A stretch of DNA of 64,000 bases from Hymenobacter sp. YIM 151858-1 (GTDB lineage Bacteria > Bacteroidota > Bacteroidia > Cytophagales > Hymenobacteraceae), in assembly GCF_025979705.1 (NCBI RefSeq), contig NZ_CP110136.1, positions 1,674,001 to 1,738,000 of the forward strand, read 5' to 3'. Shown here piece after piece: positions 891-63,555 of the stretch (the first letter of the stretch is position 1; the number at the start of each line of letters is the position of its first letter). A model generated the notes under the pieces. That model worked only from the letters and a program-made list of their open reading frames with translations, was not told the DNA's origin and made no database searches. Both the position numbers and the translations under genes were made by a program.

Positions 891-961
891 CCTAGGTGCC
901 AAACCACGCGGGGCGCCCTGGCAGCAAGTGCCAGGGCGCCCCGCGTGGTTTGGCACCTAGG
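891..961. terminator. 33-bp perfect inverted repeat between convergent genes
   Basis: Left arm 891-923 and right arm 929-961 are exact reverse complements, 33 bp each, around a 5-base loop. The outer ends of both arms are CCTAGG. It sits between the ends of the BLUF gene (plus) and the PAS gene (minus), so a bidirectional terminator is the natural reading, but there is no T-run on either side. Confidence 0.75.
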
Positions 962-964
962 TAC

Positions 965-1921
965 TTAGGCCGAGGGCACCGCCGCCGCCGAGCCGGCACC
1001 TAGCTGCGCTTCCAGGGCAGCAATGCGGTTGGCTTGCTCACGCAGCAGGCGCTCCAGCTCCAGGTTCCGGAAGGTTACTTTGCTCTCCAGATCCTGGTAA
1101 GCGCGCTGCAACTCGTCTTCGCGGGCGCGCAGCAGCTGCTCGGTCTGTTTTTGCTCGTGAATGTCGGTGCAGGTACCAAACCACTTAAGCACGTTGCCGT
1201 TGGCATCGCACATGGGCAGCGCCCGCCCCAGGTACCAGCGGTACTCGCCATCGTGGCGCCGAAAGCGGTACTCCACCTCGTAGAGTTGCTGGGTGCGCAG
1301 GGAGTTGGTCCAACGCTCGAGGCAGCGGGGCAGATCATCGGGGTGAATAACGGGCTCCCAGCCCCACTCCTGCGCCTGTTGCAGCGTTTGGCCGGTGTAG
1401 GCCATCCAGCGCTGATTGAAGTACGTAACGCCGCCGTCGGGCCGGGCCATCCACAGGATTTCCGACACGTTTTCGGCCAGAAACAGGTATTCCTGCGCTT
1501 GACGCTGCAACTGCAGCGCCTCTTGCTGCGGCTCGGTTACATCGCGGCTGATGCCCTCGAAACGCACGGGCAGGCCGGTATCGGGGTGGCGGCGCGTGCG
1601 GCCGGTTGAGCGTATCCAGCGCACGGCACCGTCGGGCCATATTACGCGGTACTCTTTGAAGTAGCGCCCCGAGCTGCCGGGTTTCAGCACGGCCTCAATG
1701 GCTTGCTCTACACCGGCGCGGTCGTCGGGGTGAATAGCATTGTACAGATCAGGCAGCGTTACGGGCTGATCGACAGGCAAGCCGTAGAGCAGTTTGCACC
1801 GGGCCGACCACGACAACTCGCGGCTCGGCAGTTCCATTTGCCAAATTCCTACCCCAGCCGCCTCTAGTACCGACTCGAGGCGGGATAGTTCGGCAACCGG
1901 ATCGGGTTGTTCAGTACGCAT
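965..1921 (-). CDS. PAS-domain protein with two PAS/PAC modules and a C-terminal coiled coil
   Basis: 318 residues. Two PAS_3-type modules are visible, about residues 12-135 and 140-265. Each shows the typical pattern (YNAIHPDDR and PVIHPDDL histidine-aspartate motifs, then WIRSTG and YRWYLGRALP strands). A predicted coiled coil follows (residues 265-310, Leu/Glu/Gln/Arg heptads). There is no signal peptide, membrane segment, histidine kinase, GGDEF or DNA-binding domain, so the protein is a sensor without a visible output. In this lineage such PAS proteins often resemble the sensory half of hybrid kinases. It may dimerise through its coiled coil and act on a partner, but that is inference. 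Confidence 0.85.
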   Translation of the reverse strand: MRTEQPDPVAELSRLESVLEAAGVGIWQMELPSRELSWSARCKLLYGLPVDQPVTLPDLYNAIHPDDRAGVEQAIEAVLKPGSSGRYFKEYRVIWPDGAVRWIRSTGRTRRHPDTGLPVRFEGISRDVTEPQQEALQLQRQAQEYLFLAENVSEILWMARPDGGVTYFNQRWMAYTGQTLQQAQEWGWEPVIHPDDLPRCLERWTNSLRTQQLYEVEYRFRRHDGEYRWYLGRALPMCDANGNVLKWFGTCTDIHEQKQTEQLLRAREDELQRAYQDLESKVTFRNLELERLLREQANRIAALEAQLGAGSAAAVPSA

Positions 1922-1950
1922 ATGGCTAGGTGGCTTCGGAGGCGGCAGGG

Positions 1951-2334
1951 TTAAGGATGGGTTAGCTCAATTTCGAGCCCCGACTGAAAATACAACGTGA
2001 GCAAGCGTCGGGCGCCGTCGTGGCTACGGCGCATACGGGTAATTAACGCATAGGAAGTGCCATGGGCAAGCTCAAGCACAAGGTAGGGCTGGCTAACTAG
2101 GCTACTGCGCTCCATGGCCCATGTGCCCGCCAGCTCGGTATTATTTGGCATGGCCAGGTGCACGCCATCGGGGCTCAGGCGCACCTGTTCGGCGTCCGTC
2201 CAGCCCGGCTCGGGCCGGTTACCGCTGCGCATTCCCACTACCCGCCAGGCTACGCACAGCAATTCAGCCGTGAGCGTCTGCAGGTTGAAGTCAAAAAACA
2301 AGTCTTGGCTAATTGAATCGAACACTGGCAGCAA
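1951..2334 (-). CDS. Hypothetical protein, about 127 aa
   Basis: I do not recognise a family. The protein is soluble-looking, with no signal peptide or membrane segment. It alternates short hydrophobic strands (YLVLELAHG, RRLLTLYFQSGLEIEL), which suggests a beta-rich fold. No ATG is available in the open frame: the longest version starts with TTG at 2334, and a GTG at 2325 is an alternative, so the start is uncertain. It is divergent from the ribbon-helix-helix-like gene and lies 29 bases downstream of the PAS gene start on the same strand. Confidence 0.5.
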   Translation of the reverse strand: MLPVFDSISQDLFFDFNLQTLTAELLCVAWRVVGMRSGNRPEPGWTDAEQVRLSPDGVHLAMPNNTELAGTWAMERSSLVSQPYLVLELAHGTSYALITRMRRSHDGARRLLTLYFQSGLEIELTHP

Positions 2335-2414
2335 AGAAGCGCGTATTTTGGCCGCGTAAAACCTATTTCGAACCTGACATTACGACCAGAAGCCCGCCTG
2401 GGCCGTACGTACCT

Positions 2415-2927
2415 ATGAGCTGTCAACCCCAAGACGTACTTACCATGAGCTCAAGCCCACGTGCGACTTCCGCTGACCCATTGCCGCCCGACTTCAACGA
2501 GCGCCCCGATGAACAAGGCAATTTGGAAGCACAAACGAGTTTAGGTAATACAAAAATAGGAGAAAGTATTACAGATGTGCAACCGCCAACGGCCGCATCT
2601 GCCAATAATCTTAGTACGAGCAACAGCCGGGTGGGGCGGCCGCCCCGCCTAGGTGCGGTGCCGGTAACCTGGTCGGTGCGGGGTGTGGAGCGCGAAACCC
2701 GCGACGCCCTGGAGCTGGCCGCCCGGCAGTTGGGCAAAACCCTGGGTCAGTACTTCAACGACGAAATCCGGCAGTTTGCCCTTAACCAAGCCGCGGTCGA
2801 GCACACCTCATCGGCCGAGCAGATTCGGGTACTGAAAGAACAGGTTGAGCGCTTGCGCGAATTGGTGGAGAACCTGGCCGCGCTGCTGGGCACCGCCCCC
2901 GAGGACGCACCCGAAGGCCCACGCTAA
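2415..2927 (+). CDS. Ribbon-helix-helix-like protein with disordered N-terminus and coiled coil
   Basis: About 170 residues from the ATG at 2415 (an ATG at 2445 is equally possible). The first ~75 residues are rich in Ser/Pro/Asn/Thr and look disordered. Then comes a segment of the form VTWSVRGVERETRDALELAA followed by RQLGKTLGQYFNDEIR. It resembles the strand-helix-helix pattern of CopG/Arc-type DNA-binding proteins. The last 60 residues form a Leu-heptad coiled coil (RVLKEQVERLRELVENLAAL). Such proteins bind DNA as dimers and often act as small repressors or in plasmid maintenance, but no toxin partner is present here. The AT-rich first part has base use unlike its neighbours (GGTAATACAAAAATAGGAG around 2545). 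The fold assignment is tentative. Confidence 0.6.
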   Translation: MSCQPQDVLTMSSSPRATSADPLPPDFNERPDEQGNLEAQTSLGNTKIGESITDVQPPTAASANNLSTSNSRVGRPPRLGAVPVTWSVRGVERETRDALELAARQLGKTLGQYFNDEIRQFALNQAAVEHTSSAEQIRVLKEQVERLRELVENLAALLGTAPEDAPEGPR

Positions 2928-2952
2928 AGCAACCGGCTTAACTTACCTAGGT

Positions 2953-4695
2953 CTATTCGGTGGCAAACGAGGCGTACTTACGCTTACGCAACCAGGCGCG
3001 CACCAGCCCAAACGCGGCGAGCAAGGCTAGCGGAACGCCCAGGTTCAGCAGCTGCCATTTGCTCTTTTCGGAGTTTACTTTCACTTTATCGAGCGGGCGC
3101 AGCGTGATTTCCTTGCCGCGCACCGAAATCAGACCGGTTTCGTCGAGCAGGTAATCCACGGCGTTCTGCACCAGCTCGCGGTTGGCAAAGCGGGTGGTAG
3201 CCAGGCGGTCGAAGCCCAGGGGCACGGGGCGGCCGGTTTTGGGGTCCACATCGTTGCGCACAAAGTCGCCATCCGACACCAGCACGATTTTGCTCGGCTT
3301 GGCTTGCGCGCTTTGCGCGGGCACAAATTGGGTGGTACCGGGCTGGGCGCGGTTGGCAAACAACGACCGGAACTGCCCTTCGAGCAGGTAGCCCACGGGC
3401 TTTGGCCCGCTGGTGTACAGCTTGGGGTCGGCGGGCAGGCGCGCATCGTTCAGGTTGATGGGTACGGGCGCGGGCAGCACGCGGGTGTAGCGCGAGGTAT
3501 ACATCAGCGGCGTTTTGCGGATGCCCTTGGCCTTAACCGTATCAATGGTGCTCACGAACTTCAGGTACACCGCATCGAGGTTGCGCACGATGGGGTGCGG
3601 GGTGTAGCCATTCACGATGGGGTAAAACTGCCACGGCATGGGCTCTACGTTGGGCTTGTTGCCCGTCATGCCCGTTACCAACGGAATCAGGCCGGAGTTG
3701 ATGTCCAGAATCAGGTCGCCGTTGACGCGCGCGCCGTACGTGAACAGCAGGTCCGTGAGGTTCAGATCGAGCGGAAACGAGAGCATGCCGCCGCGGTTGG
3801 CGCTGTCGAGGTTCACGCGCATGGCATCCACGAAAAACAGCGCCCGGCCGCCTTCGGTGATGAACTTATCGAGCTTGTACTTCTCGGGCTCGGTGTACGG
3901 GCGCTCGGGCTTGGCCACAATCACCGCCGCGAGCGACTTCATGTTCTGCTCGGTTACCTTGTTCAGGTCGATGCGGTACACGTTGTGGTCGCGCTGCAAA
4001 GTGGCAATCAGGTCGTAGAGCTGCGCGTTGTCGGGCTCGCCGTGGCCTTCGACAATGCCGATGAGCTTGCGCTGGCCGGGCTCCAGACGGCGAATAGCAC
4101 TGGCCAGCTCGTATTCCAGGCCTTCGATGCTTTGGTTGAGGCGCACATCGGGCGGGGCGGCCTGGTTGCCGCGCAGCAGCAGCACGTTTTCTTCGCGGCT
4201 GCCCACCGTTACGGTAGCCCACGGAAAGATGATCTTCTCGACGCGCTTGCCGTTTTCGTTGGCCCCTAGGTTGGTTGGGTTCAGGCCTTTCTGAATGAGG
4301 CGCTGGTACTCCTTCTGGCGGTCGGCTTCGGAAGTAGCGGCCGAGGGGTCGACGAACACGTAGCGCAGCTTGGTGCCGGCGTGCACCTGCATTTCGTCGA
4401 GGGTTTCGCGCGTGGCTTGCGACAAGCGCCGGAACGCGGTCGGAAAGTCGCCGGCCAGGTACACCGTAATGGTTACCGGCTCAGGCATTTGCTCCAGCAG
4501 CTGCTCCGTGGCCGGCGACATGCTGTAGCGTTTGTCCTCGGTTAAATCGAGGCGAAAGAAGAACTGCTGCCCGATAAAGTTGAGCAGTACCAGACCTAGG
4601 ATAACCAAGCCGAAGCGCAGCAAATCGCGCTGCTTGCGCGAGGCCGGAGCAACAGCGGTAACGGGTGCGGGCGTGGCGGCGGGAGTTGTTTCCAT
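2953..4695 (-). CDS. gldG: Gliding-motility ABC transporter auxiliary protein GldG
   Basis: 580 residues. The N-terminus is cytoplasmic and Ala/Pro-rich, followed by one membrane helix (about 27-47) and the conserved RLDLTEDKRYSMSPAT segment. A large periplasmic domain of the ABC-2 auxiliary/GldG type runs to about residue 545, and a second membrane helix near the C-terminus ends in a basic RKRK tail. GldG works with GldF and GldA in an ABC transporter needed for gliding in Flavobacterium, and related species carry it even when they do not visibly glide. The gene follows gldF on the same strand with a 20-base gap, so the two are very likely co-transcribed. Length and domain order are normal for the family. 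Confidence 0.92.
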   Translation of the reverse strand: METTPAATPAPVTAVAPASRKQRDLLRFGLVILGLVLLNFIGQQFFFRLDLTEDKRYSMSPATEQLLEQMPEPVTITVYLAGDFPTAFRRLSQATRETLDEMQVHAGTKLRYVFVDPSAATSEADRQKEYQRLIQKGLNPTNLGANENGKRVEKIIFPWATVTVGSREENVLLLRGNQAAPPDVRLNQSIEGLEYELASAIRRLEPGQRKLIGIVEGHGEPDNAQLYDLIATLQRDHNVYRIDLNKVTEQNMKSLAAVIVAKPERPYTEPEKYKLDKFITEGGRALFFVDAMRVNLDSANRGGMLSFPLDLNLTDLLFTYGARVNGDLILDINSGLIPLVTGMTGNKPNVEPMPWQFYPIVNGYTPHPIVRNLDAVYLKFVSTIDTVKAKGIRKTPLMYTSRYTRVLPAPVPINLNDARLPADPKLYTSGPKPVGYLLEGQFRSLFANRAQPGTTQFVPAQSAQAKPSKIVLVSDGDFVRNDVDPKTGRPVPLGFDRLATTRFANRELVQNAVDYLLDETGLISVRGKEITLRPLDKVKVNSEKSKWQLLNLGVPLALLAAFGLVRAWLRKRKYASFATE

Positions 4696-4715
4696 GCGTC
4701 AGAGAGTCCGGCAGG

Positions 4716-5441: not shown

Positions 5442-5502
5442 GAATCGCTGATTGACGCTGATTTATTTGATTACGCTGATTCGGCAATCGATTCAGCTAG
5501 TT

Positions 5503-5609: not shown

Positions 5610-5615
5610 TTCCAT

Positions 5616-16384: not shown

Positions 16385-16559
16385 TTGCTTTTGGGCCACC
16401 TAGGGCACCTAGGCAGCGGCAAGGCAGCGGCAAGGCAGCAACATGCGCAAATACAGCTGAATACCTGACGATTATCAGCCACACCCCACTGGACTTTAAA
16501 CCCGCCAGAAGGTAACTTAATACCTGCCCGAGCAACCCCTTCCCTGCTTTGGCTTACCC

Positions 16560-42302: not shown

Positions 42303-42304
42303 CC

Positions 42305-43297
42305 CTAGGTGTTCAGCAAGGTGGTAAAGGCCTGCCGCGCCCGGCCCGAGTCGAGCGACTCGTAAGCGGCATCCAGCGCATCGGGCAGGCTGATATTGGG
42401 GTTGATGCAGCAGATACCTAGGGCGGCGTTGGCGGCCACCACATCGCACTGCGGGCGGGTGCCTTTGCCATCGAGCACATCGCGGAAGATGCGGGCCGAA
42501 CCTTCTACCGAACGGCCGCCTACCAGGTCTTCGGTGCGGCACACGGGCAGGCCAAGCTCGGTGGCGGTTAGCAGCCGCTCGCCTTCTTCGGAGGTAGCAA
42601 TTTTGGCGTCGCCGGTAAGCGAGAGTTCGTCGTAGCCATCGAGGGCGTGCACCACGGCGTAGCGGGTACCGCTTTCCTGCAGCAGGTATTGGTACAGGCG
42701 CAACAGCTCGAGGCTATACACGCCCAGCAACTGAGCCGTGGGGCGCGCGGGGTTGATGAGCGGCCCCAGCATATTGAAGAAGGTGCGCACCCCTAGGTCG
42801 CGCCGAACCGGCGCAATGCGCCGCATGGCCGGATGAAACGCCGGCGCGTGCAGAAAGCAGATGTTGGCGGCCTCCAGCTGATGGCGCAGCCGGTCGGTGG
42901 GCGAATCGAAGTCGTAGCCGAAGTAGGCCAGGATGTTGGAAGCACCTACCGACGACGAGACGCCGAAGTTGCCGTGCTTCACCACTTTGTAGCCAGCGCC
43001 GGCCACCACAAAGCTGGCCAAGGTGCTGATGTTCAGGGTTTCTTTGCCGTCGCCACCGGTGCCCACAATATCGAGCACCTCGTGGGTGCCCAGCTCCGGG
43101 TCGCGGCACAGCTCGAGCAGCGCGTCGCGGAAGCCAGCCAGCTCGGGCACCGTAATGGGGCGCATCCGAAACACGGTTAGCAGCGCGGCGGCCTCGGCGT
43201 CGTTCACCTCGCCCTGACCTAGGCGCAGCATCAGCTCGTGGGCCTCGGCGCGGCTTAGGTTGTGGTGTTCGAACAGGGCAGTGAGCAGTTGTTTCAT
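42305..43297 (-). CDS. trpD: Anthranilate phosphoribosyltransferase
   Basis: About 330 residues from the ATG at 43297. The family signature is DIVGTGGDGKETLNISTLAS (substrate-binding Gly-rich loop), followed by KVVKHGNFGVSSSVGASN. It transfers the phosphoribosyl group to anthranilate. A CCTAGG overlaps the stop codon. The gap to trpG upstream is 81 bases and holds a short tandem repeat. Confidence 0.95.
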   Translation of the reverse strand: MKQLLTALFEHHNLSRAEAHELMLRLGQGEVNDAEAAALLTVFRMRPITVPELAGFRDALLELCRDPELGTHEVLDIVGTGGDGKETLNISTLASFVVAGAGYKVVKHGNFGVSSSVGASNILAYFGYDFDSPTDRLRHQLEAANICFLHAPAFHPAMRRIAPVRRDLGVRTFFNMLGPLINPARPTAQLLGVYSLELLRLYQYLLQESGTRYAVVHALDGYDELSLTGDAKIATSEEGERLLTATELGLPVCRTEDLVGGRSVEGSARIFRDVLDGKGTRPQCDVVAANAALGICCINPNISLPDALDAAYESLDSGRARQAFTTLLNT

Positions 43298-43300
43298 GAA

Positions 43301-43350
43301 GTAGATGAGTCGATGAGTCGATGAGTGAATGAATGGATGAGCGGATGGGT
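43301..43350. repeat. Short tandem repeat of GATGAGTC-like octamers
   Basis: Six degenerate 8-base units in a row (GATGAGTC, GATGAGTC, GATGAGTG, AATGAATG, GATGAGCG, GATGGGTG) between trpG and trpD. It has no inverted partner, unlike the other word-built intergenic stretches. Confidence 0.75.
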
Positions 43351-43378
43351 GAAGCGCGGAGGAGCGCAACGCACTCAG

Positions 43379-43966
43379 CTACTTGTCCACTTCTTCGCCG
43401 CTTAGCCAGTTCTGCAGCAAGCGGTGGCCGTGCTCCGTCAGGATAGACTCGGGGTGGAACTGCACGCCGCGCACGTCGTATTCGCGGTGGCGCAGCGCCA
43501 TGATTTCGCCTTCTTCGTCGAAAGCCGTAGCCTCCAGGCAGTCGGGCATGGAGTCGGGCTTCACGGCCCACGAGTGGTAGCGCCCCACCCGGAAACGCTC
43601 CGGAATGCCGTCGAACAGCCGCTCACTGGGCACGGCCACGGTGGCGTCGGTAGCTACGCCGTGGCGCACCGTGCTCAGGTTGATCAGGCTGGCCCCGAAG
43701 CTCTCGGCAATGCCCTGATGACCTAGGCACACGCCCAAAATGCGCTTGGTGGGTGCGTAGCGGCGAATCAGCTCCGGCATCAGCCCGGCTTCCGAGGGAA
43801 TGCCGGGGCCCGGCGACAGCAGCACGGCATCGTACTGCTCTACTTCATCTAGGTCGAGCTGGTCGTTGCGGCGCACGGTGATTTTGTCGCCATAGCCTAG
43901 CTCGCGCAGCACCTGCACCAGGTTGTAGGTAAACGAATCGTAGTTGTCGAAAACGAGAATAGACAT
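43379..43966 (-). CDS. trpG: Anthranilate synthase component II (glutamine amidotransferase)
   Basis: 195 residues. The catalytic triad of class I amidotransferases is visible: Cys in LGVCLGHQGIAESFGA, and His-Pro-Glu in GVQFHPESILTEHG; PGPGIPSEAGLMPE is also present. It supplies ammonia to TrpE. It starts 42 bases after trpE. Confidence 0.96.
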   Translation of the reverse strand: MSILVFDNYDSFTYNLVQVLRELGYGDKITVRRNDQLDLDEVEQYDAVLLSPGPGIPSEAGLMPELIRRYAPTKRILGVCLGHQGIAESFGASLINLSTVRHGVATDATVAVPSERLFDGIPERFRVGRYHSWAVKPDSMPDCLEATAFDEEGEIMALRHREYDVRGVQFHPESILTEHGHRLLQNWLSGEEVDK

Positions 43967-44008
43967 CTGTCGGCAGTTTCTACAGGTGGGCAGTTTATCA
44001 ACCTAGGG

Positions 44009-52386: not shown

Positions 52387-52486
52387 GCCGTAGCCGGCAG
52401 GCCCCGGTGCCCTGGGCAGGGCAACCACCTAGGGCACCGGGCGCCTGGCTGCTGAATCCTTCAAGCGTTTTTCAAATCCACATCAT

Positions 52487-53545
52487 ATGAACAATCGGCT
52501 TACCCAACTTACTGGGCTCTGCGCCGCCGCTCTGCTCCTGCTCGCCTCGTGCGAAAAGGAGGAAGAACGCGCAGTACTAGCCCCCAAGGATGTGCCTGGC
52601 CTGACGGCCTCGGCCACTACGCTGAACCTCTCGATGGCTACCGCCACCCAACCGGCGGTAACCTACAACTGGACGCGTTCGACCTTCGGCTACGACGCCG
52701 CGGTTACCTACACGCTACAGTTTGATAAGCAAAGCGGTGATTTTTCGACGCCTTACGAAGTAGCGGTGGGCACGGCCCTCACTAAAACCTTCACGGTAGC
52801 GGAAATCAACGACATTCTCATCAGCCGCCTGAAGCTGACTGCCGGTACACCGGCGCAGGTAAAAGTGCGCGTGAAGTCGAGCGTAGGCGACAAGGTTGCG
52901 CCGCTGAACTCGGGTGTTTCTACCTTCACGGCCACGCCGTACCTGGTAGTAATCAACTATCCCTCGCTGTATGTGCCGGGCAACCACCAGGGTTGGTCGC
53001 CGGCTACGGCTCCCAAAATTTCGGCCTTCACCAACAACCCCGATGTGTACGAGGGCTTCGTGAACATCACCGATGCTTCGCCGGAGTTCAAGTTTACCAG
53101 CAACCCGAACTGGGACGGCACCAACTACGGTGACGGTGGCGCAGCCGGTACGCTCTCGACCAACGGTGGCGCTGGCAACCTGAAGGTAGCCGGCCCGGGC
53201 TACTACCGCCTGAAGGCCAACACCAAGAGCCTGACCTGGGAAAACCTGAAAACCACCTGGGGCGTGATTGGCTCGGCTACCCCCAACGAGTGGAACAGCG
53301 ACACTCCCCTGACGTTCGACGCTACCACCGGCACCTGGAGCGCCCGCGTAGCTTTGAAAGTGGGTGAGATTAAGTTCCGCGCCAACAGCGACTGGGGCGT
53401 AAACTTCGGCGACGGCGGCAACGGCGCACCCGTAGACGCTATTCTGGACTATGGCGGCGACAACATCAAAATCAACACCGCTGGTACTTACACCGTAACG
53501 CTCGACCTGAGCAAGCCCGGAAACTACACCTTCACGGTGAAGTAG
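52487..53545 (+). CDS. susE: SusE-type starch-binding lipoprotein
   Basis: 352 residues. Lipoprotein signal MNNRLTQLTGLCAAALLLLA with the lipobox LASC. The SusE domain follows (about 28-150; TATQPAVTYNWTRSTFGYDA), then two starch-binding modules. Each contains an FKF or IKF strand and a NYGDGG or NFGDGG motif, about residues 155-260 and 260-350. In Bacteroides thetaiotaomicron SusE and SusF bind starch at the surface. It follows susD by 100 bases and ends at a strong terminator. Confidence 0.92.
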   Translation: MNNRLTQLTGLCAAALLLLASCEKEEERAVLAPKDVPGLTASATTLNLSMATATQPAVTYNWTRSTFGYDAAVTYTLQFDKQSGDFSTPYEVAVGTALTKTFTVAEINDILISRLKLTAGTPAQVKVRVKSSVGDKVAPLNSGVSTFTATPYLVVINYPSLYVPGNHQGWSPATAPKISAFTNNPDVYEGFVNITDASPEFKFTSNPNWDGTNYGDGGAAGTLSTNGGAGNLKVAGPGYYRLKANTKSLTWENLKTTWGVIGSATPNEWNSDTPLTFDATTGTWSARVALKVGEIKFRANSDWGVNFGDGGNGAPVDAILDYGGDNIKINTAGTYTVTLDLSKPGNYTFTVK

Positions 53546-53590
53546 TAAGTACTTCGGCAGCAACGCGCTAGCACATGCGGCGCGCTGCCT

Positions 53591-53636
53591 GGCAACAAAA
53601 AAGGCCACTGCTTCGGCGGTGGCCTTTTTTGTTGCC
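53591..53636 (+). terminator. Terminator of susC-D-E
   Basis: 21-bp arms (53591-53611 and 53616-53636) with one G-U pair and a TTCG loop; the stem contains AAAAAA on one side and TTTTTT on the other. It lies 45 bases beyond the susE stop. Confidence 0.93.
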
Positions 53637-53815
53637 GAATATTTTTACGCAGCGCATACCTAGGGAGCCTGATACGGTGCACGTTCGGCAGTACCGCCGC
53701 TGTTTTGAAGCACTTTGCGTGTGTATTCCGGCAATAAAACTAGGTACTTGCTATAACCTGCCTATTTTCGCAGATAGTCCGGCTTATCCGGTTTCCCCGC
53801 AACCCAAACTGCTTT

Positions 53816-54676
53816 ATGATTCTAATTGCCGACGGCGGTTCTACCAAAACCAGCTGGTGCCAGCTCGACCTAGCCGACCCGCAGGATCGTATCCACTTCA
53901 ACACCGAGGGGTACAACCCGTATTTCATCGACACCGCGGGCATCGTGAAGTCGTTGGACGGCAGCTTGCCGGAAGCCCTGCCGCGCGAGCAAGTATCGCA
54001 GGTAAGCTACTACGGCGCGGGCTGCTCTACCCCGGCCAACGTGGGCACTGTGGAGAAGGCCATGCGCCAGGTATTCCCGAATGCCAACGTATACGTAGGC
54101 CACGATTTGCTCGCCGCGGCGCGCGCGTTGCTCGGCCGTGAGGCAGGCTTTGCAGCCATTCTGGGCACGGGCACCAACTCGGCTATTTATGATGGCCAGG
54201 ACATTGCCCACAACATCGACTCGCTGGGCTATTTCCTGGGCGACGAAGGCTCGGGCTCCTGGATTGGCAAACGCCTGCTGCGTGACTACATGCGCCGCCT
54301 GTTGCCCGATGGTTTGCAGGAAGCCTTTAAGAAGGAGTACGGCCTCGAAAACGAGCAGATCTTCGACCGCATTTACAACCAGCCGTTGCCCAACCGCTTT
54401 CTGGCTTCGTTCAGCAAGTTTGCTTACGAGCACAACAACATCAGCTACTGCCGCGACATCGTGGTAGAGGGCTTCGAGGCCTTCTTCAAGAACCTCGTTA
54501 TCCGCTACCCCGAATACCAGAATTACACTTTCAACTGCGTGGGTTCGGTGGGCTACAACTTCCGCGACGCGCTTTCGCAGGTGGCCCGTGCCCACGGCAT
54601 GCAGGTCGGCAAAATCATCCGCTCCCCTATCGATAGCCTCGTTGACTACCACGTGGAGGTAGCGCAGGCCGACTAG
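53816..54676 (+). CDS. N-acetylglucosamine-kinase-like sugar kinase (BadF/BcrA/BcrD ATPase fold)
   Basis: 286 residues. The actin-like ATPase motifs are DGGSTKTSWCQLDLADPQD at the N-terminus, GTGTNSAIYDGQDI, and GDEGSGSWIGKRLLRDYM. Bacterial members phosphorylate N-acetylglucosamine or related sugars. In a starch locus it may serve a side sugar, or may be unrelated to starch. It stands after the susE terminator with its own upstream region (TATTTTCG near 53764 resembles a -7 element). Two terminators follow. Confidence 0.85.
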   Translation: MILIADGGSTKTSWCQLDLADPQDRIHFNTEGYNPYFIDTAGIVKSLDGSLPEALPREQVSQVSYYGAGCSTPANVGTVEKAMRQVFPNANVYVGHDLLAAARALLGREAGFAAILGTGTNSAIYDGQDIAHNIDSLGYFLGDEGSGSWIGKRLLRDYMRRLLPDGLQEAFKKEYGLENEQIFDRIYNQPLPNRFLASFSKFAYEHNNISYCRDIVVEGFEAFFKNLVIRYPEYQNYTFNCVGSVGYNFRDALSQVARAHGMQVGKIIRSPIDSLVDYHVEVAQAD

Positions 54677-54697
54677 GTGCCCTAGGTGCCGCACGCG

Positions 54698-54736
54698 CAA
54701 CAAGGCCGCTCCCAGCCAGTGGGAGCGGCCTTGTTG
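54698..54736 (+). terminator. Terminator after the sugar kinase gene
   Basis: Perfect 17-bp arms starting CAACAAGGCCGC and ending TTGTTG, loop of 5, 22 bases beyond the kinase stop. A TTTG follows the stem. Confidence 0.9.
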
Positions 54737-54872
54737 TTTGCCGGTGTTCCGGCGGGCGTACGCGGGTGTGGGCATTGTACCCTAGGTCGGTACCCGCGCT
54801 ACAAGCAAAGGCAGGGTTAGCCAGACTCATGCCAACGCCTGAAACCTGACCGCCACGCCCTTAACTCCCACG

Positions 54873-54912
54873 CAACAAAAAAGCCCCGCCAGCTGGCGGG
54901 GCTTTTTTGTTG
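54873..54912. terminator. 40-bp perfect palindrome between convergent genes
   Basis: Two 20-bp halves (54873-54892 and 54893-54912) with no loop, A6 on one side and T6 on the other. It stands 26 bases past the end of the amylase gene, which is on the minus strand. It should terminate in both directions. Confidence 0.93.
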
Positions 54913-54938
54913 GCCGAAGCCGTTGGCATGGCAAGCAC

Positions 54939-57755
54939 CTAGGGCTGCACTACCAGGCGCGTAGTGGCGGCGGTAGCACCGGCTTGCACCTTCACGAGGT
55001 ACACGCCCGGAGCCAGGCCGGCCAGCGGTACTTTAACGCCGATGGGGCCGGCTGCCTGACGGCCCGGCAGCGCTACGCGGCGTACCTCGCGGCCGATGAT
55101 GTTGTGCACACTTACCTGCACGGGCGCGGCCGTAGGCAAGGTAAAGAGCACCGTAGCCTGCGAGCTGGCAGGGTTGGGCGCTACCGTGAGGCCGATGGCC
55201 GCTACTTGCTGCGCGGCTTTCGAAGAGGTAACGCGGGCCAGGCGGCGCGAGGTGTATACGCGGTACTCACCAGGCTGCAGCGTAATGGCCGCATTCACGT
55301 CGGTTACCGTGATGCTGTCGTTAGCCAGGTAGTTGTACCACTTGCCCGTGCTCTGGAACTTGGGGTTCACCGTTGCCGAAACCACATCGAAGTTGCCGAT
55401 AACGGCTACGCTCAGGTTGGCGTCGCTGAGATGGATGGTTTTGGTAGCCCCGGCCACGTTCTGCACGAACGTCGAGGGGTTATCGAACACCGGGTTATTT
55501 TTCTTCAGCGAAATAAGGTTGCGGTAGGTGTCGTAGAGCTTGCGGCGGGCCGGTACGTTGTAGTACTCCCAGCGGATGGGCTTGTTGCCTACGCGGCCAT
55601 TCTCGTCGATGCTCACGTCGTAACCCACTTCGCCAAACTGCCAGATCATTTTCGGGCCGGGCACCGTGAAGAAGAACGCCGCGGCGGCTTCGTTGCGGGC
55701 CAAAGCCGTGTTCAGGTTGCGGGTATCGTAACCGGCCACCTGCTTGCCGAAGCTGATGTTTTTGAACATCAGGCGCTCCTCGTCGTGGCTTTCCATGTAG
55801 GTTACCAGGTTCGGCTGCGACCAGTTACGGGTGCCGTAGTAGCCCCAGCTCAGGTCCGACTTGTTGTTCTCCACGTAGCCCATGGTGGCCTCGTTGTAGT
55901 TGTGGTTCAGGTTGCCCCACAACATCATGCCTTCGGCCGCCAGAATCTGCTCTTCGCTGTTATCGGCAAAGTGCTCCAGTATCACGTAGGCATCTTTGTC
56001 GACGGTGCGGATGTGGTTGTTGTAATCCTTCCAGATGGCAATGCGCGAGTCATCTTTCTGCCCCCACTTGCCCACGTCGCCGCCGGCATTGGTTTGCGTA
56101 AAGCCCTTCGACAAGTCGAAACGGTAGCCGTCGATTTTGTACTCCTGCAGCCAGAACTCCATCACGCGCTTCGAGAAGGCACGGGTGTAGGGGCTCTCGT
56201 GGTTGAAGTCGTAGCCCACGTTGAAGGGGTGCGTAGCATCCTGGTTGAACCACGGGCTGTTGGCGGTAGGCTTGCCGTTTTCGAAGTACAGCTGCACCAT
56301 CGGCGACTCGCCAAACGAGTGGTTGAGCACCATGTCCAGAATCACGGCAATGCCGCGGCGGTGGCACTCGTCGATAAAGCGCTTCAGCTGATCTTTGGGG
56401 CCGTAGTATTTATCGGGAGCGAAATAGAAAGAGGTGTTGTAGCCCCACGATTCGTTGCCCTCAAACTCGTTGACGGGCATCAGCTCGATGGCGTTTACGC
56501 CCAGGCGCTGCAGGTAAGCCAGCGTGTCGGTGAGGGTTTGGTAGTCGTGGCGGGCAATAAAGTCGCGCACCAGCAGCTCGTAAATAACCAGCTTGCTTTT
56601 GGCCGGGCGCTTATAGGTGGCAGCCTGCCAGTTGTAAGCCGCCTGGTTGGTTTGCAGCACCGATACGTTGCCGGTGGTTTTGCCCGTGGGGTAAGCCTTC
56701 AGGCCGGGGTACGTTACCTGTGGGATAAAGGGGTCGTCGCTGGGGTCGAGCACCTTCTCGGTGAAGGGGTCGGCGATGCGCAGCGTGCCATCTACCAAGT
56801 ACTGGTAGGCGTACTCCTGGCCAGCCTGCAGGTTATCGAGCTGCAACCACCACTGCTTGCCGTCGGGGGTTTTCTTCATGTAGCCCGCGTCGGTGGGCTC
56901 CCAGTTGTTGAACTCGCCCAACACGAAAGCGTGCTGCTTATCGGGGGCGGTAAGTACCAGCACCACCGAGGTGCCGCCGGGCAGGTAATTGATACCATCG
57001 CGCATGCCGCCGGGCAGCGCCTGCGTAACCACGGCGCCGCGCACGAAAAACACCAGCGTTTGCTGGGCCGTTTGCGAGCCGTCGGTGGCAACCACTTTTA
57101 CTTCGTTGCGGCCGGCCTGGGTAAACGTCAGCTCTTTGCTGATGCTGTTGGCGTTGGCTTCTTCCTGCAAAGCGTTGTTAAGGAACAGCTTGAGGTTGCT
57201 GCTCTTCGAGGCTTCGGCCGAAACCCGCACTTTGGCACCGCTTTCCACCAGCTGCAAGTTCTGGCCGGCGGGGGCCGTAAAGCGTACCGACAGGGCCGCG
57301 CTCTGCTGCACCTCAATCAGGATGTCCTTGTTGCCGGTGTCTTTGCCCTCGGGCGAGCCGTTGGCCCCGCGAAACACCATCGCGAGCTTCATGATTTTGT
57401 CGGTTGCCGGCAGCTTATCGTAGTAAGTGCGCGGCACGAAGCTGATGGTGTAGAGGTTAGGATTGGTGGCGCTGCGCGTCATCTTCTCCTTGGCAATGGG
57501 CTGCGAGAAACTGGTGCCCACCACCGCCTTCCAGTCGGTATCGTTGGCGCTTTTGTCGGAGATTACGCCGGTCCAGATGTACACGTCGCCGGTGTAATCC
57601 TTCAGTCCGCCCGAGCCTTTGGTGGCATCGAAAGTCAGGGTTACCTGGTCGTCGGCCGTGAAAAACGACGGCTGCGTGGTAACCACCTGGGCGCGCACGG
57701 CAGCTGTGCTGAGCAGCATCAGCCAGAGCACACCTAGGAGTCGAAGTTTTCTCAT
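54939..57755 (-). CDS. GH13 alpha-amylase, secreted, with T9SS sorting domain
   Basis: 938 residues from the ATG at 57755. A signal peptide (MRKLRLLGVLWLMLLSTAAV) is followed by two N-terminal beta domains (about 25-240) and a CBM48-like domain (about 260-350; AFVLGEFNNWEPTDAGY). The GH13 barrel covers about 390-720. Its conserved regions are DMVLNHS (about 474-480), GYRFDLSKG with nucleophile Asp547, ILEHF with acid/base Glu594, and ESHDEER with Asp658. A beta C-domain follows and then the T9SS type A tail (LTVAPNPASSQATVLFTLP, LAPGVYLVKVQAGA). It degrades starch at the cell surface to feed SusC/D. It is convergent with the kinase gene and has an operator half-site upstream. Confidence 0.94.
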   Translation of the reverse strand: MRKLRLLGVLWLMLLSTAAVRAQVVTTQPSFFTADDQVTLTFDATKGSGGLKDYTGDVYIWTGVISDKSANDTDWKAVVGTSFSQPIAKEKMTRSATNPNLYTISFVPRTYYDKLPATDKIMKLAMVFRGANGSPEGKDTGNKDILIEVQQSAALSVRFTAPAGQNLQLVESGAKVRVSAEASKSSNLKLFLNNALQEEANANSISKELTFTQAGRNEVKVVATDGSQTAQQTLVFFVRGAVVTQALPGGMRDGINYLPGGTSVVLVLTAPDKQHAFVLGEFNNWEPTDAGYMKKTPDGKQWWLQLDNLQAGQEYAYQYLVDGTLRIADPFTEKVLDPSDDPFIPQVTYPGLKAYPTGKTTGNVSVLQTNQAAYNWQAATYKRPAKSKLVIYELLVRDFIARHDYQTLTDTLAYLQRLGVNAIELMPVNEFEGNESWGYNTSFYFAPDKYYGPKDQLKRFIDECHRRGIAVILDMVLNHSFGESPMVQLYFENGKPTANSPWFNQDATHPFNVGYDFNHESPYTRAFSKRVMEFWLQEYKIDGYRFDLSKGFTQTNAGGDVGKWGQKDDSRIAIWKDYNNHIRTVDKDAYVILEHFADNSEEQILAAEGMMLWGNLNHNYNEATMGYVENNKSDLSWGYYGTRNWSQPNLVTYMESHDEERLMFKNISFGKQVAGYDTRNLNTALARNEAAAAFFFTVPGPKMIWQFGEVGYDVSIDENGRVGNKPIRWEYYNVPARRKLYDTYRNLISLKKNNPVFDNPSTFVQNVAGATKTIHLSDANLSVAVIGNFDVVSATVNPKFQSTGKWYNYLANDSITVTDVNAAITLQPGEYRVYTSRRLARVTSSKAAQQVAAIGLTVAPNPASSQATVLFTLPTAAPVQVSVHNIIGREVRRVALPGRQAAGPIGVKVPLAGLAPGVYLVKVQAGATAATTRLVVQP

Positions 57756-58864: not shown

Positions 58865-59016
58865 GGCACCTAGGGCCTTGGGTGCCGCTGGGCCAGCCCC
58901 GGGCATCGGTGGGGCCGCTTTTCGCGTTTCATTAGCGACCTTTACCCCTGCCCGCGCCCCGGCTGCCACCGCCGCCCCGGCGACCTAGGGCAAACCAGAC
59001 GAAAAATCAGCTGATT

Positions 59017-60156: not shown

Positions 60157-60173
60157 GGAGTTTGCCCTAGGTG

Positions 60174-60323
60174 CTGTCATCCTGAGCCTAAGCGAAGGAC
60201 CTTCTCACGCAAAAACGAGCCGTTGTTTACGCTGTCATCCTGAGCAAAGCGAAGGACCTTATCACGCGAGATAGTAATTACTACCTGGCGTGATAAGGTC
60301 CTTCGCTGTGCTCAGGATGACAG
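60174..60323. repeat. Three copies of the GTCATCCTGAGC repeat, two forming a palindrome
   Basis: The first copy is at 60174-60209 (plus). The second at 60232-60267 (plus) and the third at 60288-60323 (minus) face each other across a 20-base spacer, forming a near-perfect hairpin of 36 bp. The core is CTGTCATCCTGAGC followed by AGCGAAGGACCTT. It lies between the Smr gene and the GIY-YIG gene. Confidence 0.88.
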
Positions 60324-60350
60324 TATCACTTATCACATCTAAAATCTGCA

Positions 60351-60631
60351 ATGCCCTATTACGTCTATATCTCTACCAACCCCGCAAAACAGTTCTGTAC
60401 ATCGGCGTAACAAACGACTTAGCAAACCGCCTCGCGCAGCACTACGCCAACCGCGGCGAACCAGGCACTTTTGCGGGTAAGTATTTCTGCTACAACTTGC
60501 TCTACTTCGAGGAGCATCAGAATAGCCTTAACGCCATTGCCCGCGAGAAGGAATTGAAAGGCTGGACGCGGGCGAAAAAAGACGCTTTGATCGATACCTT
60601 GAACCCTGCAAGAGAATTCTTGCAATCCTGA
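60351..60631 (+). pseudogene. GIY-YIG endonuclease, frameshifted
   Basis: A small single-domain GIY-YIG protein. From the ATG at 60351 the frame reads MPYYVYISTNPAK and then runs into QFCTSA and a stop. The rest of the family sequence continues in the neighbouring frame from about 60383: TVLYIGVTNDLANRLAQHY, KYFCYNLLYFEEHQN, AIAREKELKGWTRAKKDALI. One added A in the AAAA run at 60386-60389 would join the two parts into a normal ~93-residue protein. GIY-YIG proteins of this type cut or bind DNA. Read without the frameshift, the second frame could begin upstream in repeat DNA, which is unlikely to be real. A sequencing error in the A-run is possible. Confidence 0.75.
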
Positions 60632-60639
60632 CGGCGCCC

Positions 60640-60673
60640 GACGTGGCAAGGTCCTTCCTTCGTCAGGATGACA
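60640..60673. repeat. Diverged copy of the GTCATCCTGAGC repeat
   Basis: Reads in the minus orientation like the third copy at 60288-60323 (AAGGTCCTTC ... CAGGATGACA) with several changes. Together they bracket the GIY-YIG gene. Confidence 0.7.
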
Positions 60674-60699
60674 ATACACACCGCTCTTCTTCCACCCCG

Positions 60700-62586
60700 A
60701 TGAACCTACCCGGCCTCCTTGCCGCCTCGCTCCTAGCCCTCAGCACCCTCCCCACTTTCGCGCAGCAGCCCGCAGCACCTGGGCTGCCGGTACCGCGCAA
60801 CCTGCAGGCCACCTACGCCAAAGGCACCCGCGCCGAAGACGGCAAGCCTGGTCCCAAGTACTGGCAAAACGCGGCCGATTATAACCTGCGCATCAACTTC
60901 GACCCTACCACGCGCCTGGTGGCCGGCACCGTCGATATCACCTACTTCAACAACAGCCCCGACGAGCTAAATCAGCTGTGGTTTAAGCTCTACCCAAACC
61001 TTTACAAAAAGGGCGCGGCGCGGGCCAGCAGCATCCGGCCCGAAGATGTAAGCGAAGGCGTGAAGATTGAGCAGCTGACCATCAACGGGCAGGCCCTCGA
61101 CCTAGGCAAACTGAACATCGACGCTACCAACATGCAGGTGCTGCTGCCGCAGGCCCTCGGCGCCGGGCAGCAGGCCAAGGTATCGGTAACGTACTCCTAC
61201 ACGCTTAACCAAGGCTCGCACACGCGCACCGGCGAGGTGGAGCCCGGTTCGCACTTCGTGGCGTACTTCTTCCCGCGCATTGCCGTGTACGACGACATCG
61301 ACGGCTGGAACAAGCTGCCCTACAACGGCCAGCAGGAGTTCTACAACGACTTCGGCAACTTCTCGGCGGCCATTACGGTGCCCAAAGACTACGTGGTGTG
61401 GGCCACCGGCGACCTGCAGAACGCCTCCGAGGTGCTCACGAAGAAATACGCCAAGCGCCTGCGCGACGCCGAGCGCAAAGACGCGGTGGTAAAAATCATC
61501 GACGAAGCCGATGCCCAGCGCCGCGACATCACGGCCGGCAACGCCCAAAACACCTGGCGCTTCGAGGCCAGGAACGTGCCCGACTTCGCCTTTGCCACCT
61601 CCGACCATTACGTGTGGCAGTCGACGAGCCTGGTAGTCGATCCGAAAACCAAGCGGCGCACCCGCGTGGATGCCGTGTACAACCCCAAGCACAAGGATTT
61701 TGAGGAGGTGGTGCACTTCGGCCGCAAAACCGTGGAGGCCATGAGCTACACCTTTCCGAAGTGGCCCTTCCCCTACTCCCATGAAACCGTGTTCAACGGC
61801 CTCGACCAGATGGAGTATCCCATGATGGTGAACGACAACCCCGTGGAAACCCGCGCCGACGCTATTACCCTCACCGACCACGAAATCTTCCACACGATGT
61901 TCCCCTTCTACATGGGCATCAACGAAACCAAGTACGGTTGGATGGACGAGGGTTGGGCGACCATCGGCGAGTGGGTTATTTCGAGCATCATCGACCCGAA
62001 GCTGGTGGACGATTACGGCGTGCTGCCCTACGCCCGCGCCGCCGCCACTGAGGCCGACATGCCCATCACCACGCTCAGCACCCAGCAAACCGGCACGGCT
62101 TTTTTCCTGAACTCCTACCCCAAGCCGGCCCTGGGTTACCTCTACGTGCGCGACCTCCTAGGCGACGAGCTGTTCACGAAGGCGCTGCACACCTACATCC
62201 AGAACTGGAACGGCAAGCACCCCATGCCCTTCGACTTCTTCAACTCGATGAACGCCGGGGCCGGCCGCAACCTCAACTGGTTCTGGCAGCGCTGGTTCTT
62301 CGACGGCGGCTACCCCGACCTAGGCATTGCCAGCGTAACCAAGCAAGGCGCCAGCTACGATGTGGTAGTGGAAGCAAAAGGCAGCAAGCCCGTTCCCGTG
62401 GATTTGACTGTGACTTACGCCGACGGCACTACGCAGCAAGTGCACCGCAACATCGGCGTGTGGGAGTCGGCGCCTAGGTCCATAACCGTGCAAGTACCCG
62501 GCGACAAAGCCGTGAAGCAGGTGAAGCTGGGTAGTACTTACGTGCCGGATAGCTACCCGCAGGACAATGTGTGGGAAGGAAAGTAG
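60700..62586 (+). CDS. Secreted M1-family metallopeptidase
   Basis: 628 residues from the ATG at 60700. Signal peptide MNLPGLLAASLLALSTLPTF, cleaved after AQQ. The zinc site is His394-Glu395-Ile-Phe-His398 with the third ligand Glu417 (MDEGWAT), 18 residues further, as in M1 aminopeptidases. The N-terminal beta domain (about 45-290) and the helical catalytic domain (about 340-560) are recognisable. It should trim peptides in the periplasm or outside. There is no T9SS tail. The stop is followed by a 41-bp palindrome. Confidence 0.93.
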   Translation: MNLPGLLAASLLALSTLPTFAQQPAAPGLPVPRNLQATYAKGTRAEDGKPGPKYWQNAADYNLRINFDPTTRLVAGTVDITYFNNSPDELNQLWFKLYPNLYKKGAARASSIRPEDVSEGVKIEQLTINGQALDLGKLNIDATNMQVLLPQALGAGQQAKVSVTYSYTLNQGSHTRTGEVEPGSHFVAYFFPRIAVYDDIDGWNKLPYNGQQEFYNDFGNFSAAITVPKDYVVWATGDLQNASEVLTKKYAKRLRDAERKDAVVKIIDEADAQRRDITAGNAQNTWRFEARNVPDFAFATSDHYVWQSTSLVVDPKTKRRTRVDAVYNPKHKDFEEVVHFGRKTVEAMSYTFPKWPFPYSHETVFNGLDQMEYPMMVNDNPVETRADAITLTDHEIFHTMFPFYMGINETKYGWMDEGWATIGEWVISSIIDPKLVDDYGVLPYARAAATEADMPITTLSTQQTGTAFFLNSYPKPALGYLYVRDLLGDELFTKALHTYIQNWNGKHPMPFDFFNSMNAGAGRNLNWFWQRWFFDGGYPDLGIASVTKQGASYDVVVEAKGSKPVPVDLTVTYADGTTQQVHRNIGVWESAPRSITVQVPGDKAVKQVKLGSTYVPDSYPQDNVWEGK

Positions 62587-62596
62587 AACGACCCTG

Positions 62597-62686
62597 CTGT
62601 CATCCTGAGCACAGCGAAGGACCTTATCACGTTTGGTTGATTACTACCAAACGTGATAAGGTCCTTCGCTGTGCTCAGGATGACAG
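62597..62686. repeat. 41-bp perfect inverted repeat of the GTCATCCTGAGC family
   Basis: Arms 62597-62637 and 62646-62686 are exact reverse complements of 41 bp with an 8-base loop. The arm starts CTGTCATCCTGAGC like the copies near 60.2 kb. It lies between the M1 peptidase and RNase P RNA. Confidence 0.93.
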
Positions 62687-62711
62687 ACGAACCAAGAAAG
62701 AAAGAATAAAT

Positions 62712-62719
62712 TACCTTTG
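62712..62719 (+). promoter_or_regulatory. -7 promoter element of rnpB
   Basis: Reads TACCTTTG, an exact TAnnTTTG match, seven bases before the predicted 5' end of RNase P RNA. Confidence 0.65.
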
Positions 62720-62726
62720 CCCGCAA

Positions 62727-63190
62727 GTGATGCGCCGCCCCACCGCTGCGCAACCGGCCTAGGTCGGGAGCGGAGAGGAAAGTCCGGGCAACGCAGAGCA
62801 CCCTGCTTCCTAACGGGAAGGACGGCGGCGGGCGACGGCCGCCGGACAGCCAGTGCCACAGAAAACTACCGCCTGTTTGAGCTTAGGTAAAAAGCTTAGG
62901 GACTTGGCTGAACGACTCCAAGCACCATAAGTTCTTAAGCCCTAACCGGTAAGGGTGAAAAGGTGCGGTAAGAGCGCACCAGCGGGCGGGCAACCGTTCC
63001 GGCTGGGTAAACCTCAGGGGTTGAAAGGCCAAATAGGCCGGCAGGCGGGGCTTCGGTCCCGCAACGAGCGGCTCGCTCGTTGTCGGCGGGTAGGCTGATG
63101 GAGCCCACGCGCGAGTGTGGGCCTAGATAAATGGTGGGGCCGCTGCCCTTCGCGGGGTGGCGGACAGAACCCGGCTTACAGGCGCATCAC
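62727..63190 (+). ncRNA. rnpB: RNase P RNA
   Basis: The catalytic RNA that trims tRNA 5' ends. Universal core segments are present: GAGAGGAAAGTCCGGGC (near 62773), ACAGAAAACTACCGCC and the J/P segments GGTAAGGGTGAAAAGGTG and AGATAAATGGTGGGGCCG, ending in GACAGAACCCGGCTTACA. The ends are set by helix P1: GTGATGCGCC at 62727-62736 is the exact complement of GGCGCATCAC at 63181-63190. The length (464) is a little longer than typical bacterial A-type RNAs. It has its own promoter and terminator. It contains a CCTAGG near 62758. Confidence 0.97.
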
Positions 63191-63199
63191 CAAAAACAC

Positions 63200-63240
63200 A
63201 AAACCGGCCGTCGTTGCAAGTGCAGCGGCGGCCGGTTTTG
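63200..63240 (+). terminator. Terminator of rnpB
   Basis: A 19-bp stem (63200-63218 and 63221-63239) with two G-U pairs and a 2-base loop. The stem ends in TTTT, and TTGCTTTAA follows. It lies 10 bases past the RNA's 3' end. Confidence 0.9.
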
Positions 63241-63295
63241 CTTTAAAGACATGTTTGGGGTTGCGAAGCCCAATGGATGCCAACTAGAGCTAAGA

Positions 63296-63555
63296 CTAGT
63301 TCCCCTCCTCAGATGAGGAGGGGCTGGGGGTGGTTGACTGGTCGTTGAACGCCTCTGAACGGGTCGTCATGCTGAGCTTGCCGAAGCATCTCTACCGCTT
63401 CGTTGAGGCTCGTATCTGGCGAAGCGGTAGAGATGCTTCGGCAAGCTCAGCATGACAGACGCGGGAAGCAGTCCTAGGTAGTTTTAGCTCTAGCTTTTCA
63501 ACCACCCCTAGCCCACGCCGCTCGATGCGCGGAATTCATCTGAGGAGGGGAACTA
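63296..63555. repeat. Nested palindromic repeat, outer element (CTAGTTCCCCTCCTC type)
   Basis: The left end reads CTAGTTCCCCTCCTCAGATG and contains its own 11-bp hairpin (CCCCTCCTCAG/TGAGGAGGGG region). The right end, after 63498, carries the reverse complement (CAACCACCCCTAGCCC then CATCTGAGGAGGGGAACTAG). A different palindrome sits in the middle. This 260-base stretch, with its neighbours, fills the 400-base gap between rnpB and the cytochrome gene; no gene is seen. Confidence 0.8.
63366..63456. repeat. 37-bp perfect inverted repeat, inner element (GTCATGCTGAGC type)
   Basis: Arms 63366-63402 and 63420-63456 are exact complements of 37 bp with a 17-base loop. The arm begins GTCATGCTGAGC, clearly related to the GTCATCCTGAGC elements at 60.2 and 62.6 kb. 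It lies inside the outer palindrome. Confidence 0.9.

Follow-up and report, generated by a model that had tools for sequence, protein, structure and literature searches.

The question raised by a stretch of DNA of 64,000 nucleotides from Hymenobacter sp. YIM 151858-1 (source genome G000; the whole stretch is referred to here as the window) is what maintains one short word, CCTAGG, at a density of 1.28 per kb. An earlier note on this DNA had reported about 82 copies, making up most of the CTAG sites, and had compared the word to the highly iterated palindrome (HIP1) of cyanobacteria. The counts were confirmed: CCTAGG was found 82 times between positions 891 and 63478, and 82 of the 134 CTAG sites of the window lie within it. 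Dinucleotide shuffles of the window (n=100) contained a mean of 14.4 copies (standard deviation [sd] 3.6) and at most 27, and the numbers expected under Markov models of order 1, 2 and 3 were 14.0, 12.9 and 16.1, respectively. CCTAGG was the top-ranked 6-mer of the window by excess over both order 1 and order 3; order 4, which already holds the 5-mers CCTAG and CTAGG, expects 68.7. Chance and base composition are excluded by these shuffles and models. The excess is not limited to the window, as the whole genome (4,621,779 bases in three contigs) contains 5325 copies compared to 75 copies of the reversed control GGATCC, and a word at approximately one per kb genome-wide is what is found for DNA uptake sequences. 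The analysis as a whole shows that the word is real, genome-wide, strongly driven and lineage-specific. By analogy with known systems, we give a probability of about one half to the explanation that ACCTAGG followed by G or C behaves as a DNA uptake sequence, that is, as a self tag of this Hymenobacteraceae lineage comparable to an uptake signal sequence (USS) or a DNA uptake sequence (DUS).

Among the eight genomes of its own genus (g1), three contain 5325, 5678 and 6212 copies and five contain 123 to 249. The three carriers are G000, G004 and G005, the last taken as Solirubrum puertoriconensis MC1A, and the five motif-poor congeners are taken as Hymenobacter busanensis, H. edaphi, H. jeollabukensis, H. 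sp. CRA2 and H. sp. 15J16-1T3B. A 20-kb piece of the window matched all seven congeners, and the aligned identity to G000 was 86% for G004 and G005 compared to 77 to 78% for the five others, so that the three carriers look like one clade. In the family (204 genomes), only nine exceed 5000 copies (G000, G004, G005, G030, G036, G072, G088, G104 and G123), four form a middle group with 1209 to 2331 copies (G041, G043, G129 and G137), eight have 507 to 888 and 183 have fewer than 500. With such a distribution, and with other words in use among the sampled relatives, CCTAGG does not mark the family in general. The best 80 of 485 TrpD relatives in GTDB were g1 congeners and otherwise mostly members of other families; at the loci of at least 10 kb among them, a CCTAGG-type word was present at the locus of G005, and at a few other loci a word was frequent locally (CCATTGAC in L304 and TGAGTAGT in L288, for instance), which is read as a putative local repeat.

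In the window, 48 of the 50 copies within genes, as called by simple codon-score predictions, were in the frame xxC CTA GGx (Leu-Gly) and two were in CCT AGG. The density was 2.92 per kb between predicted genes compared to 0.94 per kb within them. In G004, for which one stretch was analyzed (G004:C1:1-1,200,000), it was 2.38 per kb in intergenic and 1.15 per kb in coding DNA. In the window, CTA accounted for 45 of 69 CTN codons in the motif context, for 3 of 23 in C-CTN-GG flanked by other bases and for 73 of 1517 in all remaining contexts, and the excess thus outlasts a correction for codon use. In the three carriers together, CTA made up 172 of 260 CTN codons in the C-CTN-GG context compared to 6.4% in other contexts; the corresponding values for the five motif-poor congeners were 3 of 238 and 2.0%.

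The bases on either side of the core were far from random. The 82 window sites had A before in 41 cases, T after in 35, both in three and neither in three, so that 79 are inside ACCTAGG or CCTAGGT. The G004 stretch contains 1657 copies of CCTAGG, 1509 of them with A before or T after. The flanking pairs A..G (455), C..T (433), G..T (262) and A..C (225) were common, and G..C (51), C..C (30), A..T (29) and T..A (1) were rare; ACCTAGGT accounted for 29 of the 1657. When the gene positions able to hold the word were considered, the filled proportion was high in the classes A..G (173/186, 93%), C..T (299/341, 88%), G..T (128/159, 81%) and A..C (187/265, 71%), and also in T..T (47/60), A..T (20/25) and A..A (12/13). 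It was low in G..C (28/154, 18%), C..C (28/98, 29%), G..G (12/48) and T..C (2/42, 5%). Outside these contexts, CTA made up about 6% of the CTN codons of G004. In the motif-poor congeners, the filling of the classes A..G, C..T, G..T, A..C, G..C, C..C and T..C was 0/2, 0/7, 0/8, 2/79, 0/65, 0/71 and 0/32, respectively. The base before ACCTAGG also had an effect in G004, with 91% filled after C and 89% after G compared to 63% after A and 76% after T. Moreover, the C..T-flanked context itself was found 28.4 times per 100 kb in G004 compared to 2.1 in the motif-poor congeners, and therefore neighboring codon positions have moved too.

These findings clearly show that the driven word is the asymmetric ACCTAGG, followed by G more than C, on either strand (759 forward and 779 reverse copies in the G004 stretch; 82 and 61 in the most uneven 100-kb bin). 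The uneven filling, together with the 79 of 82 window sites with an A or T flank, indicates that the palindrome is a by-product of the core. The comparison to HIP1 in the earlier note therefore stands as far as a hyper-abundant genome word beyond composition and codon use is concerned; its palindromic part does not, with G..C sites 18% and A..G sites 93% filled. The flank-dependent filling and the rarity of ACCTAGGT ruled out a restriction or methylation site that is simply palindromic, and codon use as the cause was excluded by the context- and flank-dependent use of CTA. The recognition site of AvrII, BlnI and XmaJI is the same 6-mer that the word contains, but here the flanking bases decide the filling. 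Restriction sites are usually avoided in genomes.

The sites arose largely by substitution in place, through both transitions and transversions. Window sites were compared where they aligned without gaps, unaligned or gapped sites being excluded, which left 76 of 82 for G004, 70 of 82 for G005 and 25, 29, 44, 34 and 42 for the five motif-poor congeners. The same word was present at 53 of 76 sites in G004 and 48 of 70 in G005, and at only 1 of 174 in the motif-poor congeners. The commonest states in the motif-poor congeners were CCCAGG/CCTGGG (43) and CCGAGG/CCTCGG (23), which together with the near absence of CCTAGG there points to substitution as the origin. Conservation between G000 and G004 was seen for 36 of the 48 sites in phase 2 of genes compared to 50% for all hexamers, and for 16 of 26 between genes compared to 42%. 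CCTAGG was 65 times commoner than in the congeners; ACTAGG, GCTAGG and TCTAGG were 2.2 to 3.2 times commoner, several near-miss words were 2.2 to 5.6 times commoner, and CCCAGG and CCGAGG were rarer (0.58 and 0.75). Deamination at Dcm sites, converting CCCAGG to CCTAGG, was ruled out by the CCGAGG sources, the small rise of ACTAGG, GCTAGG and TCTAGG, and the flank effect.

The filling of a site also depended on its distance from the nearest other site. Of 1049 potential coding sites in the G004 stretch, 866 were filled, and the proportion was 19/38 at 9-50 bp, 72/96 at 50-100 bp, 132/161 at 100-200 bp, 250/307 at 200-400 bp, 297/335 at 400-800 bp, 83/99 at 800-1600 bp and 13/13 beyond. The trend was nearly unchanged with each site counted once, was reached in 0 of 5000 permutations within flank classes, and was absent from 27,382 control CTN codons. 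It was also present in genes of at least 900 bp away from the gene ends (z = 4.6; 0 of 3000 permutations). The gaps between sites were more even than in gene-respecting simulations (n=500, each site, ACCTAGGT included, counted once). There were 150 gaps below 100 bp compared to 175 simulated (sd 9.9), 372 compared to 413 (sd 15) at 100-400 bp, 803 compared to 719 (sd 17) at 400-1600 bp, 171 compared to 176 (sd 9) at 1600-3200 bp and 12 compared to 24.7 (sd 4.1) at 3200 bp or more. In Haemophilus influenzae, two USS within 100 bp give no detectable rise in receptor binding (Mora et al., 2020, PMC7811141).

Relatives carry dialects, as is found for uptake sequences. The samples were of 20-40 kb and non-random, and those from genus g4 were picked by CCTAGG count, so that they give no estimate of frequency in the family; a genome without a motif is one in which none was evident in 20-80 kb. 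The words found were TGGCCTAS, CCCTAGGG, RASCTAGSTY, AACTATAR, AAGTATAR and GGGGCCCC, or none was evident. Among the other high and middle genomes, the word was ACCTAGG[TGC] in G088, SCCCTAGGGS in G072, CCTAGG in G104 and RASCTAGSTY in G030, with similar forms in G036 and G123, and in G041, G043, G137 and G129 it was STGGCCTA(S) preceded by A or G. In 20 further genomes, five of them the motif-poor congeners, a clear word was present in four. The word of G182 was AACTATA[AG], with CTATAGTT found 33 times in 20 kb compared to 0.5 expected, and G174 and G154 had AAGTATA followed by A/G or A/C. The palindromic GGGGCCCC of G065 (sample L266; 16 copies in 20 kb compared to 1.2 expected) is more HIP-like than the other words. 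No clear word was found in 20 kb of G118, which has 888 CCTAGG, and the borderline or repeat-like words in the samples of G011, G017, G140 and G146 were not counted as dialects. The excess of AACACGTT in G002 was confined to one 40-kb region (19 copies, still 19 after a further 20 kb), and the motif fit drifted. For comparison, eight DUS dialects have been described in Neisseriaceae, the named genomes having between 943 and 5918 copies (Frye et al., 2013, PMC3630211). No publication reporting such a word in Hymenobacteraceae, or a system of this kind in Bacteroidota, was among the matches listed in the literature searches, which covered few subscription papers.

The word was scarce in some classes of DNA. 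Seven restriction-modification (RM)-type or Vsr loci of G000 contained 2 CCTAGG in 25.1 kb compared to 39 in 30.2 kb at ten comparison loci found by a DNA pattern. Of the latter, L140 overlaps the RM-type locus L134 and another holds a methylase, which makes the contrast conservative. In genus g4, RM-type loci were clearly below the chromosome samples in seven of nine genomes; the word of G041, G043 and G137, it should be said, differs from CCTAGG. Nine gaps longer than 3.5 kb were present in the G004 stretch, and a scan of five of them for RNA genes showed rRNA operons in two.

Overall, the observed pattern is closer to that of DNA uptake sequences than to that of HIPs linked to methylases. 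As with the DUS of Neisseriaceae and the USS of Pasteurellaceae, there are thousands of copies of one short asymmetric word with lineage dialects, the copies originate by point substitution in place, they are scarce in newly acquired DNA, rRNA and coding sequence (G004, G041 and G043 being exceptions), and close pairs add little. The proposed mechanism is that a DNA-handling machine, most likely the uptake receptor of natural transformation, would favor fragments bearing the word. Recombination of the favored fragments would then enrich the word at positions that tolerate point mutation, and most synonymous Leu-Gly sites in a suitable context would end up filled; relatives would have switched the favored word or lost it. 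Fragments bearing ACCTAGGG are predicted to be taken up in preference to scrambled ones, and GCCTAGGC would be a further comparison word.

A number of observations weigh against an uptake sequence. Competence of these species is itself a presumption. Known USS and DUS systems use type IV pili, with a minor-pilin receptor; the word here is found in Bacteroidota, and no match to the pilus ATPase (PF00437, T2SS/T4P ATPase) was found in any of 14 g1 and g4 genomes, the family being above the cut-off in 1 of 20 genomes tested. A type IV pilus is therefore improbable as the machinery and was rejected for the genomes tested. All 33 genomes tested for ComEC (PF03772) have it, whether they carry the motif or not, so that it is not discriminating. 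DUF5689, taken from an essential transformation protein of Riemerella, was found in 10 of 17 genomes that carry a motif, in 7 of the 16 others and not in G000, so that it shows no association and was rejected as a marker of the trait. In contrast to DUS, which have been studied as 10-mers, the word has 7 to 8 bp. Most one-mismatch words were not enriched between genes (0.3 to 1.7 times expectation, the first position apart), in contrast to an uptake word of Actinobacillus pleuropneumoniae with 947 compared to 86 (Bakkali, PMC1939737); relative to the congeners, however, several near-miss words were commoner, as given above. The spacing effect was strong only at distances below about 100 bp and lost significance past 200 bp: when distances below 50, 100 and 200 bp were dropped, 12, 48 and 341 of 3000 permutations reached the trend, and the filling at 800-1600 bp was below that at 400-800 bp. 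Three small flank classes with neither A before nor T after were well filled (T..G 3/4, T..A 1/1, C..G 9/23), and the palindromic dialects RASCTAGSTY and GGGGCCCC are more HIP-like. Finally, RM-type loci were not always poor in the word. Two in G004 had 6 copies in 6.8 kb, 5 of them at a 1005-aa methylase common to G000, one in G005 had 1 in 3.7 kb, and in G041 and G043 such loci were equal to and above the chromosome sample, respectively.

Since the tested genomes of g1 and g4 gave no pilus ATPase, uptake would be pilus-independent; this and the nature of the machine as an uptake receptor are both inferred, and no candidate receptor emerged. Riemerella anatipestifer offers a parallel, as ComEC, DprA, ComF, RecA and four proteins of unassigned function are required for its transformation and a unique machinery has been proposed (PMC8459023). 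Riemerella columbina favors its own DNA, and at least part of its k-mer table lists A/T-rich words (PMC7965970). A separate observation on ComEC was made in G174, where the match at G174:C1:2771217-2771876 has one in-frame TAA, though this genome carries the AAGTATAR word. A wider proposal for Hymenobacteraceae is tentative, and we place it somewhat below even odds: sequence-specific uptake that needs no type IV pilus, its dialects (ACCTAGGS, TGGCCTAS, CCCTAGGG, RASCTAGSTY, AACTATAR, AAGTATAR, GGGGCCCC) changing rapidly and acting as mating barriers, would represent a further, independently evolved uptake-sequence drive, in addition to those of Neisseriaceae and Pasteurellaceae, with a receptor of a new class.

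The alternative that survives best, unlikely as we judge it but to be taken seriously, is a HIP-type word with a DNA methylase, in which methylation-directed mismatch repair, or a need for approximately one mark per kb, would build the sites as in the HIP1 model of Elhai. The density of about one per kb equals that of HIP and alternate HIP sites, which Elhai (2015, PMC4390886) ties to methylases. The weaker filling close to existing sites would also be expected of a mark serving a segment, and some of the dialects are palindromic. HIP1 (GCGATCGC) and the alternate cyanobacterial HIPs are likewise iterated words with patchy replacement in relatives, but they are mostly palindromes with matching methylases. 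In the present case the main word is asymmetric, although other genomes of the family have palindromic ones, its specificity is graded (93, 88, 81, 71 and 18%), and the methylase classes tested gave none that the carriers share. Among the 13 high and middle carriers, PF00145 was found in 4, PF01555 in 5 and PF02384 in 11, not in G005 and G129, and on account of this patchiness a C5, N4/N6-beta or type I/gamma methylase common to the carriers was rejected. The DNA pattern for [GA]NPP[YF] gave 32 hits in G000, G004 and G005, of which 30 were read, including all of those in G004 and G005, with no methylase common to the three; the classes D12, Eco57I, MT-A70 and EcoRI-type were not searched genome-wide. 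Only three predicted proteins of more than 180 aa in the G004 stretch have [DNS]PP[YFW], and none looked methylase-like by local sequence, no family-library run being made. The MmeI-like orthologs at G000:C1:2172717 and G004:C1:2005162 (L158 and L150) both have 1005 aa and are 87% identical, and their middle, approximately residues 640-830, differs, which suggests a swapped target-recognition domain. This protein was rejected as the common methylase because of the differing middle and because the pattern did not detect it in G005.

Less probable still is another machine that scores DNA by segment. It could be a RecBCD/AddAB-type nuclease with a Chi-like site, a protein of the nucleoid or of segregation, or a system for packaging or for telling self from non-self. 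An asymmetric word of 7-8 bp at about 1.3 per kb, with filling that depends on neighboring sites, would suit such a machine. Chi sites are short, asymmetric, over-represented words that are strand-biased in their classical form. The word analyzed here shares the first three properties but has no strand bias in the 1.2 Mb of G004, the replication origin not being located, and a Chi site was rejected on this ground; it also varies within one family, faster than expected for a housekeeping nuclease.

We consider site-autonomous biased mutation or repair, Vsr-like or resembling gene conversion and turning near-misses into CCTAGG, very improbable. The strong directional change from CCCAGG and CCGAGG, and most near-misses between genes being at or below expectation, would agree with it, but the gains include both transitions and transversions, and filling tracks the distance to other sites (0 of 5000 permutations). 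The repair hot spot proposed in the earlier note fits poorly for the same reason, filling being weaker near another site. Vsr (PF03852) was present in only 3 of the 13 high and middle carriers and was rejected as a cause. A codon or base-composition artefact has practically no standing. In its favor, the genic sites are nearly all Leu-Gly codons; against it, the flank-dependent use of CTA ranges from 5% to 93%, the density is higher between genes, and the word is nearly absent from the syntenic genes of congeners.

Within the window, the 82 copies of the core were located by counts (891..63478) and carry no strand assignment, which applies to the examples here. Two intergenic copies, at 891..896 and 956-961, lie in the same gap between the predicted genes 440-883 (+) and 965-1837 (-), and a coding example is at 4265..4270 within the predicted gene 2953-4695 (-). 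Two further intergenic copies, at 16399-16404 and 16408-16413, have starts 9 bp apart. Five copies are in or at trpD and trpG (42304..43727; starts 42304, 42417, 42792, 43218 and 43722), a stretch that aligns with the motif-poor congeners; trpD, trpG and trpE occupy 42305-45490. The window also contains a pyruvate carboxylase gene (19601-23128), a SusD gene and an alpha-amylase-family protein with a type IX secretion system tail (50812-57731), and a class A bacterial RNase P RNA (62727-63194). A near-perfect hairpin of approximately 100 bp is present in two copies, at 60216-60340 and 62586-62705, with folding energies of -78 and -84 kcal/mol, respectively. It matched both strands in several congeners among the matches listed and occurs at seven places in the 1.2 Mb of G004, and it is a dispersed element similar to repetitive extragenic palindromes or miniature inverted-repeat transposable elements. 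In genus g4, the control word GGATCC divides the genomes roughly into two groups, one with about 0-50 copies each and the other mostly with 60-330, as though many species had lost the site to BamHI-type restriction.

Genomic uptake sequences have been described in Pasteurellaceae and Neisseriaceae, and the cyanobacterial HIPs are still a riddle. Congeners that differ in the presence of the word, and related genomes that differ in its identity, offer a natural comparison in which the gene that decides the word should track it. Should the word be an uptake tag, a new DNA receptor would be implied, with a bearing on the preference of Riemerella columbina for its own DNA; should it be linked to a methylase instead, the HIP model could be put to a strong test. 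In both cases, most of the permitted synonymous Leu-Gly sites have been rewritten by a pressure other than codon use, which matters for work on codon usage and for barriers to gene flow.

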